Shown here: positions 214 through 5,608 of the stretch, in pieces
Numbering within the stretch: position 1 is the first letter of the stretch
How the letters are laid out: each line of letters starts with the position of its first letter
Assembly (NCBI GenBank): GCA_902776195.1
Contig: CACYPF010000024.1
Location: forward strand, 1 to 38,240
DNA from: an uncultured Prevotellaceae bacterium
GTDB taxonomy: Bacteria; Bacteroidota; Bacteroidia; Bacteroidales; Bacteroidaceae
DNA: 38,240 bases
Direction of reading: 5' to 3'
Notes under the pieces: model-generated
Told to the model about the DNA's origin: nothing
Databases searched by the model: none
Seen by the model: only the letters and a program-made list of their open reading frames with translations
Program-made: the position numbers and the translations under genes

Positions 214-903
214 TCATTTGACACGTTGATAGAAACTGCGAAGCGCACCTTGGTTGATTTCCTTACTCGACAGTTTGTTAAGTTCGCGTCGTGCAGTATC
301 TTTTCTTCCAAGATAAATAAGGACATCAATATATGACAATTGATAATCCACATTATCCGGATCTATTGTTTTAGCCTTCTCCCAATCATAGAGGGCTTCA
401 TCATATCGTTTCATCTCCGTTTCGAGGGATGCACGGGCAACATAGCCTCCAACAGAGTCTGGATGCTGTTCAACGACGATGTTCAACAAATCGAGGGCAT
501 CGTTGCGTTTCCCCATTAACTGATAAACATATGCCAGTCCCACCCTTGCCTCCATATGAGTAGGCTTCACAAGCAGAATATCATTATAGTCATTCTTCGC
601 TAAGTCATAACGACGCAAATGAGTATAAGCATAGGCACGGTAGAACAAGGCCGTCAGATTCTTCTCATCGTTTCTGAGAATTGTCTTGTATTCATCAACA
701 GCAAATTCCCATTGTTGCAATTCAAGATTAATCGCAGCTTTCCGAAGATGCAGGTTCACACTATAAGGATACCTCGCTATCTGTTGGTTGATGGCATTCA
801 GGGAGTCACGCCATTCCTGGTTAGACTGCGCCTGCATGCCAATAGCCAACAGCAAACAGCATACGACTGATGCTATGCGTTTTTGATGTAGTTTACAATC
901 CAT
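214..903 (-). CDS. Exported TPR-repeat protein
   Basis: A 229-aa protein. It begins with a short basic N-terminus and a hydrophobic segment (residues about 10-24) ending in MQAQ, which fits a signal peptide cleaved near residue 25. The rest is tetratricopeptide repeats from about residue 38 to 200, with recurrent A-Y..A..L..Y..A..D...A patterns typical of TPR helices. TPR proteins are protein-protein scaffolds; the partner cannot be read here. The start lies 31 bp inside the end of leuB, and the signal peptide needs this upstream start, so the overlap appears real. It is the last gene of the ftsY-rimO-HU-leuB run. Function beyond a periplasmic or outer-membrane-facing scaffold is unknown. Confidence 0.8.
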
Positions 904-1934
904 TCACCAACCTCTTTCGTACCATACTTGGCACCACCTTCCACCTGAATCTCCGGGGTACGCACATTGGCATCCAGGGAAGCATTCACCGCCTCACGGA
1001 TTAACGCACCCTCTTTCTTTAAATCAAAATGTTCCAGCAGCATAGCGGCAGAGAGAATCTCCGCAAGAGGATTCGCAAGATTCTGTCCAGCAGCCTGAGG
1101 CCATGAACCGTGAACGGGTTCGAACAAAGGGGTATGCTCGCCCAGTGAGGACGATGGCTGTAAGCCCATGGATCCCGTAATACAAGAGGTCTCGTCCGTA
1201 AGGATATCACCAAAGGTGTTTTCTGTCACGATGACATCAAAGAAGCGGGGTTCTGTCAGGACACGCATGGAGGCATTGTCGATAAACATATAATCAGTAT
1301 TCACGTCGGGATACTGTGACTCCATCTCCTTGGCTATCTGCCGCCATAGACGAGAACTTGCCAGCACGTTTGCCTTGTCGACAACCGTCAGATGCTTCTT
1401 GCGCTTCTGTGCGGTCTCGAAAGCAACTTTCAGAATACGCTCAATCTCCGGACGTGTATAGATGTCGGTATCGTACGCTTTATCGTTATCCTGGTATTTC
1501 TCACCAAAGTACATGCCACCCGTCAACTCACGAATAACCACGAAGTCGGCACCTTTCAAAAGTTCATCCTTCAAAGGAGACTTATGCAGCAAACAGTCGA
1601 AAGTGGCGACAGGACGAACGTTGGCAAACAAGCCCAATTTCTTACGCATAGCAAGAAGTCCCTGTTCAGGACGAACTTTCGCCGTTGGGTTATTATCAAA
1701 GCGAAGATCACCAACTGCAGCAAACAATACTGCATCAGCCCTCATACACACATCGTGTGTTGCCTCAGGATAGGGATCACCCACGGCATCAATGGCATGA
1801 GCGCCACAAAGAGCCTCCTCATAGGAGAACTCATGTCCGAATTTCTCTGCAATGGCGTCCATCACGGCAACGCCCTGTTTCATAATCTCTGGTCCTATAC
1901 CATCACCAGGAAGTACTGCAATTTTCAGTTTCAT
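873..1934 (-). CDS. leuB: 3-isopropylmalate dehydrogenase
   Basis: A 353-aa NAD-dependent decarboxylating dehydrogenase that converts 3-isopropylmalate to 2-oxoisocaproate in leucine synthesis. Visible family signatures are GDGIGPEI near the N-terminus, [10 protein letters not shown] (substrate-binding Arg and the LeuB-type loop), the metal-binding [10 protein letters not shown] segment and [12 protein letters not shown] near the C-terminus, which is the Bacteroidetes variant of the usual GSAPDIAG. Length is normal for LeuB. It starts 15 bp after the HU-LysM gene and its 3' end overlaps the TPR gene. No leuA, leuC or leuD is in the window, so this copy sits outside a leu cluster, inside a translation/envelope operon. 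Paralogous isocitrate or tartrate dehydrogenases are less likely given RELTGG. Confidence 0.93.
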
Positions 1935-1949
1935 ATTAATTCATCTAAT

Positions 1950-3074
1950 TTAATTATTTAATGTTCGTTTCTTTTTCCATTTCAGCTTAGGGATTTTGAT
2001 GACCTGTCCCTCTTTCAGTTCCGCATTTGCCTTTAAGCCGTTATACACCTCTACGTAGCAGGACATGCCCTCGCCCAACTCACGGCGGGCAATCCTTGAG
2101 AGCGTCTCACCCTTCTTAACAACCACCTCACGGTCAGTACCGACGATATGATAGGCGCCCGTTCGAACACGTGCATCCATTCTCTCATATTTCTTCCAGA
2201 ACGGCTCATCCTCTTGAGCAGGTTCTTTCTTTTCTTCCACGGTAGATTCTTCCTTAGGCTCTTCAGCAGCAGGTATGTCCTCCACCATATCCACTGAATC
2301 TACAGTGACCGTCTCTATACTATCTACAAAAACAGGTTCTGGGACAACCTCTTCCGCCTTATTTATATCCCCATTTTTAGAATGTTGCCCATACCAATAG
2401 CCTGCATATGCAGAAGCAGCCATCAAAACTATAGTCAACAAAACATACCCCAATATCTTCTTCCAAGAACTCGATTCTTCTTTGTCATCAAAATCAACAA
2501 GCGGCTCGTATTCATTCGTAATGTACTCCTCTATAACTTTTTCTTCCTCAACAGTTTTCACTTCGGCTTCAATAGTTTTTTTCTCAACAGGCTGTTCTGC
2601 ATTTGGTTGTTCCTCAACAGGCTCTTCCTCGACAGGCAACTGCTCAACTTCAAAAGGTTTTTGTTCGACTAACTTATTATCAATTGCCACATTATCCAAT
2701 ACCTCCTCTTGTTCCTCCTCCTGTTCCTCTTCTGGGATATCCTCAAACTCAACACCTTCATTCAATATGACCGTATCAAATTGCGAGAATGGCTTATTCA
2801 CCAGTTCTTTCATGGTAGCATCAGGAGTAAAAGTTATTTTAGCATGACTATCTATCACAACACGCTCTCCAGTACGAACACTGACACTCTCCCGGGCTTC
2901 GACACGAATCATTTTGAATGTGCCTAAACCTTTGATTTTCACCATACCACCTTCATTGAGATTCTGTTGGATAACCTCAAACATCATGACCGCAAATTGA
3001 CTTGCCTCTTTGGACGTCAATTTGTTTTTCTCTACAAGAATCTTTGAAATCTCCTGTATCGTTAATTTTCCCAT
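1950..3074 (-). CDS. HU domain - transmembrane - LysM fusion protein
   Basis: A 374-aa protein when started at 3074, where ATG overlaps the upstream HU stop as TAATG and is preceded by a strong AAAGGAGGT ribosome site; a start 30 nt further upstream exists but lacks this support. Order: residues 1-95 are an HU/IHF-type DNA-binding fold (GKLTIQEISKILVEK... and the conserved GLGTFKMI... segment); about 105-200 is a Glu/Val-rich acidic linker; 206-226 is one hydrophobic helix (LGYVLLTIVLMAASAYAGYW) preceded by WKK, fitting an N-in orientation; 230-295 is a second acidic linker; 308-364 is a LysM motif (KKGETLSRIARRELG ... VYNGLKANAELKEGQVIKIP). HU binds DNA and LysM binds N-acetylglucosamine glycans of peptidoglycan. 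The inferred topology puts DNA binding inside and wall binding outside. The role is not established. Confidence 0.88.
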   Translation of the reverse strand: MGKLTIQEISKILVEKNKLTSKEASQFAVMMFEVIQQNLNEGGMVKIKGLGTFKMIRVEARESVSVRTGERVVIDSHAKITFTPDATMKELVNKPFSQFDTVILNEGVEFEDIPEEEQEEEQEEVLDNVAIDNKLVEQKPFEVEQLPVEEEPVEEQPNAEQPVEKKTIEAEVKTVEEEKVIEEYITNEYEPLVDFDDKEESSSWKKILGYVLLTIVLMAASAYAGYWYGQHSKNGDINKAEEVVPEPVFVDSIETVTVDSVDMVEDIPAAEEPKEESTVEEKKEPAQEDEPFWKKYERMDARVRTGAYHIVGTDREVVVKKGETLSRIARRELGEGMSCYVEVYNGLKANAELKEGQVIKIPKLKWKKKRTLNN

Positions 3075-3355
3075 TATTGACCTCCTTTCAATTTTTCCTT
3101 CCATGTCTGATTCGGCTTGAAGTTCAAAACCAATTTAGGTGGCACAAGCATTCTCTGTCCTGTAGAAGGATTTACAATAACACGTTCCATTTTCTTTTTA
3201 GTCTCAAAGACACCGAAATTAGGGACAATGATACTGTTATCTGTCACAAAGGCATCACTCATTGCCGTGATGATATTATTCACCAGTTTCTGGGTATCCT
3301 TCTGCTCGTATCCAGAACGCGCTGACAGCTGGTTTATAAATTCCTTGTTGTTCAT
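3074..3355 (-). CDS. HU-family DNA-binding protein
   Basis: A 93-aa stand-alone HU/IHF-family protein: N-terminal dimerisation helices (NNKEFINQLSARSGYEQKDT), then the VPNFGVFETKKK turn and the strand carrying VNPSTGQRMLVPP, the intercalating-proline region of the DNA-binding arm. It ends shortly after the fold. The stop overlaps the start of the HU-LysM gene by one base and its own start overlaps the end of rimO by four bases, so the genes are translationally coupled. It is more diverged than a canonical housekeeping HU, and it may pair with the HU domain of the neighbour; that is inference from co-expression only. Confidence 0.88.
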   Translation of the reverse strand: MNNKEFINQLSARSGYEQKDTQKLVNNIITAMSDAFVTDNSIIVPNFGVFETKKKMERVIVNPSTGQRMLVPPKLVLNFKPNQTWKEKLKGGQ

Positions 3356-4659
3356 ATTATAGTGGTTGCATAAATGTCAAATTCTTCTGCATCTGTCACC
3401 CTCACATCATAAAAGGCTCCAATCGTTAATGATTCCCTCGCTGAAATCAACACTTCCGGATCAACTTCGGGTGAGCAGAACTCACTACGTCCCACAAACC
3501 AATCACCTTCCAAACGGTCAATGACAACACGCAATATCTGTCCTATTTTTGCAGCTTCTATCTCTGCACTGATATTTTGTTGTATACGCATCAAACGATC
3601 TAAACGAGCCTGCTTGACATCTGCTGGCACATCATCTTGATAATGCTTTGCTGAATAAGTCCCATCTTCCTCAGAATAAGCAAAAGCTCCCATCCTTTCG
3701 AAACGCGCCCAACGTGTGAAATCCAATAATTCCTGATAATCTTCCTCGGTTTCACCAGGAAATCCCACCATCAAAGTAGTACGAAGATGTATTCCTGGCA
3801 CCTCTTCACGCATCCTTTTGATCAACTCATATGTCTCTTTTTTCGTCACATGACGTTGCATACGACTAAGCATATGATCACTGATATGTTGAAGGGCAAT
3901 ATCCAGATATTTGCACACATTCTTTTTCTCACGCATCACTCTCAGCAATTCCCAAGGGAAATGAGCTGGGTATGCATAATGCAAACGAATCCATTCTACT
4001 CCTTCTATATCAGCCATCTTCTCGATGAGTTCAGCAATTTGCTGCTTTCCGTCAATGTCAACACCATAATAGGTTAACTCCTGGGCGATAATCTGAAACT
4101 CTTTCGTACCCTGAGCTACCAAAGCACGAACTTCTTCAAGAATTTCCCCCATAGGACGACTTTGGTGCTTTCCTGTAATTATTGGAATGGCACAATAAGC
4201 ACAATGGCGGTCACACCCTTCCGATATTTTAATATAGGCATAATGACAGGGAGTGGTTAGTTTTCGGGGGGCGGGATGGGTTATAGTATCTATAGTTCCT
4301 ATAGTACCTATAGTATTTAATAGTTCCTTGTAATTAAACTTCCCATACCAGCCATCAACTTCTGGAATTTCTGCTTCAAGGTCAGCAAGATAGCGTTCTG
4401 AAAGACAGCCCATTACGTACAACCTTTCTATTTTCCCGTCTGTCTTTGCCTGAGCAAACTCCAGAATAGTGTCTATACTCTCTTGCTTGGCATCTTCAAT
4501 AAAGCCACAAGTATTAATAACAACTATTTCACCATGGGGATCATCACTGTCATGTGCCACATGATAGCCATTTGCTTCGAAAAGTCCCATCAGTCTCTCA
4601 CTGTCCACGAGATTCTTCGAACATCCCAACGTGATGAAATCGATAGTCTTCTTATTCAT
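3352..4659 (-). CDS. rimO: Ribosomal protein S12 methylthiotransferase RimO
   Basis: A radical-SAM methylthiotransferase that modifies the conserved aspartate of ribosomal protein S12. I place the start at 4659 (MNKKTIDFITLGCSKN), giving 435 aa; a longer frame adds 21 unlikely residues inside ftsY. Visible parts: the MTTase domain with its three cluster cysteines at about residues 13 (GCSKNLVDSE), 51 (NTCGF) and 85 (GCLSERY); the radical-SAM motif GCDRHCAYCAIP with cysteines near 149, 153 and 156; and a C-terminal TRAM domain. CSKN at the first cysteine fits RimO rather than MiaB. The start overlaps the ftsY stop by 8 bp. A 9-bp in-frame repeat lies in the linker before the radical-SAM domain (see 4282-4317). 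Confidence 0.94.
   Translation of the reverse strand: MNKKTIDFITLGCSKNLVDSERLMGLFEANGYHVAHDSDDPHGEIVVINTCGFIEDAKQESIDTILEFAQAKTDGKIERLYVMGCLSERYLADLEAEIPEVDGWYGKFNYKELLNTIGTIGTIDTITHPAPRKLTTPCHYAYIKISEGCDRHCAYCAIPIITGKHQSRPMGEILEEVRALVAQGTKEFQIIAQELTYYGVDIDGKQQIAELIEKMADIEGVEWIRLHYAYPAHFPWELLRVMREKKNVCKYLDIALQHISDHMLSRMQRHVTKKETYELIKRMREEVPGIHLRTTLMVGFPGETEEDYQELLDFTRWARFERMGAFAYSEEDGTYSAKHYQDDVPADVKQARLDRLMRIQQNISAEIEAAKIGQILRVVIDRLEGDWFVGRSEFCSPEVDPEVLISARESLTIGAFYDVRVTDAEEFDIYATTII
4282..4317 (-). repeat. In-frame 9-bp tandem repeat inside rimO
   Basis: Four consecutive 9-bp units read tatagtatc, tatagttcc, tatagtacc and tatagtatt on the plus strand. In rimO they encode the Thr-Ile-Gly/Asp run in the linker between the MTTase and radical-SAM domains. 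Because the unit is three codons, gain or loss keeps the frame. Confidence 0.85.
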
Positions 4660-5608
4660 TCTTAAACAGAGAGTCAACGAACTGCCGCTTATTAAACAAC
4701 TGAAGGTCTTCCATACCTTCACCCAATCCGATATATTTCACAGGGACTTTCAACTGGTCGCTGATACCGATAACCACACCACCTTTGGCGGTTCCATCGA
4801 GCTTCGTGATAGCAAGGGAAGTGATCTGTGTGACAGCCGAGAACTGCTTCGCCTGCTCAAAGGCATTCTGTCCGGTACTACCGTCCAGAACAAGCATCAC
4901 CTCATCGGGAGCCTCTGGCAGCACTTTCTTCATCACGTCCTTGATTTTCTTCAGCTCATTCATCAGTCCCACCTTATTATGGAGACGACCTGCCGTGTCA
5001 ATCAAGACGACATCCGCACCATTTGCCTTTGCTGAGCTCAACGTGTCGAACGCTACCGAGGCAGGGTCACTACCCATCTGCTGCTTGACGACGGGCACTC
5101 CTACCCGTTCGCCCCAGATGCATAACTGCTCGACGGCTGCGGCACGGAAGGTATCGGCAGCGCCAAGATAGACCTTCTTGCCTGCCTGCTTGAACTGCCA
5201 GGCAAGTTTTCCGATGGTGGTCGTCTTACCGACACCATTCACACCAACGACCAGAATGACATACGGTGTATGGTCGGTTGGCAAATCCCAGTTATCATTA
5301 TCGTCCGAGTTGTTCTCGGCAAGCAAAGCTGCGATTTCATCACGGAGAATACCATTCAGTTCACTGGTGCTTACATATTTGTCACGAGCCACACGCTCCT
5401 CGATACGCTGAATAATCTTCAATGTGGTATCAACCCCCACATCACTGGTGATTAATACCTCCTCCAAGTCATCCAATACATCGTCATCCACTTTCGACTT
5501 ACCAGCCACGGCACGTGCCAGTTTGTCGAACACACTCGTCTTGGTCTTCTCCAGTCCCTTGTCGAGTGTTTCCTTCTTATCCTTATTAAAGAAACCAAAT
5601 ATACCCAT
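4652..5608 (-). CDS. ftsY: Signal recognition particle receptor FtsY
   Basis: A 318-aa SRP-type GTPase that docks SRP-ribosome complexes at the inner membrane for co-translational insertion. N domain covers about residues 1-95; the G domain carries the P-loop GVNGVGKTTT (122-131), DTFRAAA (152-158), DTAGR (204-208) and TKLDGTAKGG (268-277), the last three being diagnostic of the SRP GTPase family. It lacks the long acidic A domain of the 497-aa E. coli protein, as is usual outside Enterobacteria; the first residues (MGIFGFFNK) form the short membrane-binding amphipathic start. It is the first gene of the operon running down to the TPR protein, with a promoter at 5638-5669. Confidence 0.96.
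   Translation of the reverse strand: MGIFGFFNKDKKETLDKGLEKTKTSVFDKLARAVAGKSKVDDDVLDDLEEVLITSDVGVDTTLKIIQRIEERVARDKYVSTSELNGILRDEIAALLAENNSDDNDNWDLPTDHTPYVILVVGVNGVGKTTTIGKLAWQFKQAGKKVYLGAADTFRAAAVEQLCIWGERVGVPVVKQQMGSDPASVAFDTLSSAKANGADVVLIDTAGRLHNKVGLMNELKKIKDVMKKVLPEAPDEVMLVLDGSTGQNAFEQAKQFSAVTQITSLAITKLDGTAKGGVVIGISDQLKVPVKYIGLGEGMEDLQLFNKRQFVDSLFKNE

Follow-up and report, generated by a model that had tools for sequence, protein, structure and literature searches.

A free HU-family protein and an adjacent HU–LysM membrane protein as a candidate link between nucleoid and cell wall in Bacteroidota

The minus strand of the window (the whole stretch analysed here, 38,240 nucleotides from an uncultured Prevotellaceae bacterium, contig CACYPF010000024.1 of GenBank assembly GCA_902776195.1) encodes two HU-family proteins in immediate succession, the second of which continues into a membrane helix and a LysM domain. 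The question raised by this locus is whether the two gene products could act together as a physical link between chromosomal DNA and the peptidoglycan. To our knowledge, nucleoid placement and segregation in Bacteroidota are poorly understood. The free HU-family protein is referred to here as HU1 and the HU–LysM protein as HUL, and the features of the locus are as follows.

873-1934, minus strand: leuB, the gene after HUL
1950..3074, minus strand: HUL, 374 aa, composed of HU domain, acidic linker, membrane helix, linker and LysM (PF00216 and PF01476 above cut-off)
1989..2123, minus strand: LysM domain of HUL, residues 318-362 (Pfam 27.5 bits against a cut-off of 20.9; PDB 4uz2, E 4e-4)
2400..2456, minus strand: membrane helix of HUL, approximately residues 207-225 (hydropathy; numbering converted from a 384-aa frame)
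2463..2738, minus strand: acidic linker of HUL, predicted to be cytoplasmic, residues 113-204 (composition of 189 homologues)
2739..2801, minus strand: post-HU motif of HUL, residues 92-112, VNKPFSQFDTVILNEGVEFED (residue conservation)
2796..3074, minus strand: HU domain of HUL, residues 1-93 (Pfam and alignment A1)
3074..3355, minus strand: HU1, free HU-family protein, 93 aa (PF00216, 82 bits)
3080..3088, minus strand: Shine-Dalgarno-like AAAGGAGGT before HUL, within the HU1 coding sequence
3352..4659, minus strand: rimO, co-directional, upstream of HU1
4652..5608, minus strand: ftsY, co-directional, upstream of rimO

The gene order on the minus strand is ftsY, rimO, HU1, HUL and leuB, with overlaps of 8 bases between ftsY and rimO, 4 bases between rimO and HU1 and 1 base between HU1 and HUL (TAATG), the last of these agreeing with the original prediction. 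The open reading frame list places the start of HUL at 3104, and 3074 is preferred on the basis of the one-base overlap and the starts of homologues. The Shine-Dalgarno-like AAAGGAGGT is located 5 bases 5' of this start, and the same bases form K-G-G codons near the C-terminus of HU1. It had been read as a strong ribosome site; the motif is real, but it doubles as HU1 coding sequence and is a trait of Prevotella rather than a general one, being present before HUL in 94/101 Prevotella-type pairs, 17/60 pairs of other Bacteroidales and 7/28 pairs of f47, a family of another class. The corresponding counts before HU1 are 0/101, 5/60 and 0/28. Shine-Dalgarno-like sites are uncommon in Bacteroidota. 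The membership of an ftsY operon that was also suggested is consistent with the chained overlaps of the window but does not extend to relatives generally: rimO is found in the stretch read at 99/100 Prevotella loci, 65/96 loci of other Bacteroidales and 0/33 loci of f47 (stretch lengths differ), so the neighbouring genes say little about function. In Bacteroides finegoldii and Parabacteroides distasonis the order is ftsY-rimO-HU-HUL, and the annotation of the last two genes goes no further than HU family DNA-binding protein.

Residues 1-89 of HU1 (82 bits) and residues 5-93 of HUL (65.6 bits) match the Bac_DNA_binding family (PF00216, cut-off 22.4). Neither protein reaches the NCBIfam equivalog cut-off for IHF alpha or beta, where the best model, PRK00285.1, gives 49.5 bits for HUL and 53 for HU1 and 111 are needed, and neither reaches the cut-offs for HU-CCDC81_bac (HU1 15.7 vs 26 bits for PF18174, HUL 14.9 vs 35 bits for PF18175). 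HUL contains a single hydrophobic segment located between two low-complexity linkers, the first of which is acidic; together with the Pfam domains, this bears out the HU–helix–LysM architecture proposed for one chain. Across 189 homologues the acidic linker has a mean composition of 32% D+E and 6% K+R, and its length varies widely, with a 5th-95th percentile range of 66-218 residues. One HUL of about 817 aa (L109:2816-5272) exhibits a very long part N-terminal to the helix. The best conserved part of HUL is the post-HU motif (residues 93-112), with a mean top-residue frequency of 0.82 in alignment A1 and 0.91 in A2; the values elsewhere (A1/A2) are 0.66/0.77 for the HU domain and 0.62/0.73 for LysM, and 0.32-0.38 for the linkers.

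A single helix is present in 185/189 HULs and two helices in 4/189, within a set that was selected for a helix after the HU domain; a helix is also found in frame in 39 of 40 extra loci for which it was not a selection criterion. Among the 185 single-helix homologues, the N-terminal flank of the helix has more K+R residues than the other flank in 134, as many in 32 and fewer in 19. The single helix, supported by this charge bias, suggests that the HU domain is located inside, and with HU in the cytoplasm and one helix, LysM would be outside; HUL is accordingly predicted from sequence to have a cytoplasmic HU domain and a periplasmic LysM domain.

The LysM domain of the window HUL passes the Pfam cut-off. 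A Pfam scan of ten relative HULs gives a LysM match at E 0.01 in 2/10 and above the cut-off in 0/10. A LysM model built here from Bacteroidales matches 160/161 Bacteroidales HULs, the miss being L257, the C-terminus of which still reads like LysM, and 1/28 HULs of f47. The C-terminal profile of the f47 HULs matches solved LysM proteins, the best being Kbp (E 1.6e-11). Kbp is a cytoplasmic potassium-binding protein, so glycan binding by the f47 proteins is not assured, and they may have a ligand other than a glycan. Neither model finds LysM at L300 and L313 among the 40 extra loci, and L313 has no helix in its reading frame either.

A search with the HUL profile A1 (E at most 1e-12) returned matches in 140/149 genomes of the same family, 49/295 of the order and 39/247 of the phylum. 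The 39 phylum matches fall into f47 (25), the family of the window (3) and f41 and f46 (11 short frames that look like plain HU). When an f47 HUL was used to search the other class, 40/117 genomes matched, all of them in f47. Nine genomes of the family have no A1 match (G576, G589, G602, G586, G691 and the four genomes of genus g299). Two of these, G576 and G589, encode HU1-HUL fusions, and G602 encodes HU1 with an arm-deleted HUL. At the position after rimO where HU1-HUL is expected, G586 (L259) encodes a 302-aa protein composed of a coiled coil, a helix and LysM, without HU. In G691 the contig ends about 500 bases beyond rimO, and no HU is found in this interval; neither HU1 nor HUL is found after rimO in the stretch read in 4/4 genomes of g299. 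HUL is not universal. Genome G034 has no HUL match and no close rimO match (the best is 29%), which makes an assembly gap likely there.

A mobile origin of the pair was considered and rejected. Six records matched in a plasmid search and one in a phage search; the three plasmid records opened and the phage record carry ftsY-rimO-HU1-HUL and look like chromosomal DNA whose records are mislabelled or unverified. Two other plasmid records match the HU part only, and the sixth is a Phocaeicola record. The phage record, L250 (MT838299.1, 'Bacteriophage sp.', unverified), contains ftsY, rimO, HU1 and most of HUL and is probably bacterial DNA.

The association of HU1 with HUL is nearly constant. The 128 loci retrieved with HUL queries comprise 112 distinct HULs, 14 repeat proteins and two loci with plain HU only (L150, L151), and HU1 is encoded directly upstream in 112/112 of the distinct HULs. 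Most of these are best matches, and for this reason 40 further hits were added, chosen by hand and most of them low-scoring, from rows of the family, order and other-class searches that had no locus yet; HU1 is directly upstream in 40/40. Whether the small HU gene always adjoins HUL, a check proposed with the original prediction, is thus answered in the affirmative by both sets, with four fusions in addition. Among 189 distinct HULs a separate HU1 is directly upstream in 157/161 from Bacteroidales and 28/28 from f47. In the reverse direction, with HU1 as the query, HUL is the next gene at 79/80 loci, and the sequence of L080 stops 86 bases past HU1. The two genes overlap in 110 of 185 pairs, are 0-4 bases apart in 62 and are further apart in 13.

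Four loci from three genera and two families (L253, L257, L258, L260) encode HU1 and HUL fused in one reading frame, which starts with an HU1-like domain, followed by what remains of a second HU, the post-HU motif, the helix and a LysM-type end. The HU1 scores of these fusions are 75, 31, 25 and 55 bits respectively, and the second HU is weak at 29, 15, 11 and 19 bits. They came from 30 genomes picked for a weak or missing HUL or as comparisons, from which no frequency can be derived. Gene fusion is a classic sign that two proteins work together.

A tree of 109 HU domains (99 columns) separates HU1 (100/94), HUL (99/95) and ordinary HU (95/91), and the HU1 and HUL groups each unite both classes, apart from ordinary HU. 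A quick tree of 111 rows gives the same three sets, with Bacteroidales HU1 needing two changes. The presence of both classes in each group indicates that the pair either existed before these lineages diverged or was transferred between them as a unit. Given the near-constant pairing, the fusions and the two groups apart from ordinary HU, HUL most likely functions by dimerising with HU1, which would give an asymmetric HU/IHF-like head at the inner membrane.

The arms of the two HU folds bear on this dimer. In the window both HU1 and HUL have full-length arms, and the tip reads NPxTG in HU1 and SVRTG, with the proline replaced, in HUL. An NPxTG tip is found in 0/161 Bacteroidales HULs and 20/28 of f47, and all 20 rows of HUL alignment A1 share R61, T68 and G69. 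The arm of HUL was gauged by the distance between the GxGxF motif and the post-HU motif, which a pattern could measure in 201 HULs, a further 28 being unmeasurable in this way. This distance is 39 residues in 180 of the 201, 19-28 in 12 and 53-57 in 9; of these nine, the five inspected are pattern mis-hits with full arms. The 12 HULs with a deleted arm belong to genera g147, g300, g273 and g22 and retain the post-HU motif NKPFSxFExVxL. The HU1 arm could be measured in 170 of 185 HU1 genes and has 21 residues in every one; in the 12 cases with an arm-deleted HUL, the arm of HU1 has 21 residues in 10 (that of L287 being read by eye), 20 in L257 and 19 in L258. Retention of the HU1 arm where the HUL arm is lost would follow if the grip on DNA came from HU1, and HU1-HUL dimers are favoured because an armless HUL homodimer could not clamp DNA. 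The deletions equally indicate that a second complete arm is not required in every case. Taken with the HU-less protein of G586, the 12 armless HULs suggest that some genera can do without the part that grips DNA, and a tether may have been modified or lost in the arm-deleted genera and in G586.

The core residue at the GxG position was considered as a further sign of a heterodimer and rejected. This residue is F in 23/23 ordinary HUs, and the HU1/HUL combination in 185 pairs is F/L in 133, L/F in 19, F/F in 22 and other in 11. A sign test for F/L compensation on a tree of 138 pairs is not significant, with only 4 (HU1) and 9 (HUL) independent pairs on supported branches.

A mixed HU1-HUL dimer is the reading favoured here. 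The two chains would be co-produced and would pair into a single asymmetric dimer of HU/IHF type, which would grip chromosomal DNA in the cytoplasm. The long acidic spacer and single membrane helix of HUL would carry this dimer to the periplasmic LysM domain, which would in turn bind peptidoglycan. The outcome would be a low-specificity tether between the nucleoid and the cell wall, probably for nucleoid placement or segregation, an account that we regard as probable with modest confidence. It is weakened by the loss of the arm in 12 HULs, the HU-less protein of G586, the absence of both genes after rimO in the stretch read in g299 and the low LysM scores of relatives. The features that can be read directly from the genes are the architecture, the near-invariant pairing, the fusions, the two paralogue groups and a charge bias that fits an HU domain inside. 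From these we infer the heterodimer, its binding to DNA and peptidoglycan and its cellular role.

The same genes can be read in other ways. The HU fold could be a dimerisation or protein-docking module. HU1 and HUL would then form a scaffold in the envelope, held to the wall by LysM and binding a partner through the post-HU motif. The high conservation of that motif within HUL and its persistence after arm deletion fit such a scaffold, as does the relative (G586) that has a coiled coil instead of HU, and CCDC81-type HU domains were reportedly proposed by Burroughs et al. in 2017 to act in protein contacts. The HU1 arm of 19-21 residues that is kept in the 12 arm-deleted cases argues against it, as do the arm-spanning spacing of 39 in 180/201 HULs and the three invariant A1 residues, and a scaffold of this kind is considered unlikely. 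A wall-sensing one-component regulator, in which LysM would sense peptidoglycan and the HU head would alter transcription in the manner of ToxR or CadC, is quite improbable. The combination in one chain of a domain of DNA-binding type, a single helix and a wall-type domain on the periplasmic side fits such a protein, but HU proteins have an established low sequence specificity of DNA binding, and an acidic spacer of such variable length (66-218 residues) suits a tether better than a signal relay.

The tether could also be concentrated at division sites, where it would keep DNA from the closing septum or along it, in parallel with a further HU-type protein encoded in the same genome at C2:79856-80863 (L118, L120). 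This protein consists of a CCDC81-type HU domain, an acidic linker, a helix and a SPOR domain, and is possibly a second DNA-to-wall link in this genome. SPOR domains localise to the septal wall. CCDC81-type HU matches are present in 24 of the 31 genomes tested, including all four g299 genomes and 0/4 of f47; 21 exceed the cut-off, and the full protein was read in the window genome only. From these counts, many of the sampled genomes have at least one HU-helix-wall candidate. The HU1 and HUL models have no match within 3.2 kb around the HU-CCDC81-SPOR gene. LysM as a class is not septum-specific, and a role in nucleoid occlusion or septum guidance is rated as doubtful.

Returning to the tether for nucleoid placement or segregation, HU1-HUL is a concrete candidate for a DNA-wall link in the gut genera Bacteroides, Parabacteroides and Prevotella. 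A broader proposal, put forward tentatively and at a little under even chances, is that the two genes constitute an old Bacteroidota module whose products form an obligate, asymmetric heterodimer of HU chains that is attached to peptidoglycan across the inner membrane. This would provide a direct, motor-free link from chromosome to wall beside an independent HU-SPOR version in many Bacteroidales. A role in chromosome partition is said to have been predicted by Burroughs et al. in 2017 for a CCDC81-type membrane HU protein of Bacteroidetes. No description of an HU-LysM protein or of the HU1/HUL pair was recognised in the literature searched, most subscription papers being outside it, and the available portions of PMC10434189 and PMC5353653 do not mention an HU-LysM protein. 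If the proposal is true, an IHF-like dimer with one anchored chain would be a use of HU not found in that literature.

Several known systems share parts of this design. RocS of Streptococcus pneumoniae, for which the authors propose DNA-to-membrane tethering, resembles HUL in combining an N-terminal DNA-binding domain and a C-terminal membrane anchor in one protein; unlike HUL, it has an amphipathic helix and coiled-coil oligomerisation, and no wall-binding domain is described in the portion of the source available, the comparison being by description (PMC11500499). HubP of Vibrio cholerae shares with HUL a periplasmic LysM domain, one membrane helix and a large, highly acidic cytoplasmic part. 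Its LysM domain is necessary and sufficient for the pole, and the chromosome 1 origin is placed through ParA1. HubP differs from HUL in making its chromosome contact via ParA1 and in a TPR region at its end, and no HU domain is given in the part of the source available, again by description (PMC8789113). The HU-CCDC81_bac-helix-SPOR protein of the window genome likewise joins an HU-type domain, an acidic linker, a helix and a peptidoglycan-binding-type domain in one chain, and differs from HUL in its CCDC81-type HU and in the SPOR domain that replaces LysM. IHF and HU share the HU fold with HU1-HUL, and IHF alpha and beta are likewise two different chains. The tip proline of HUL is replaced in Bacteroidales (0/161 keep NPxTG), a difference from IHF/HU, and these proteins are soluble, whereas HUL carries a membrane helix and a LysM domain.
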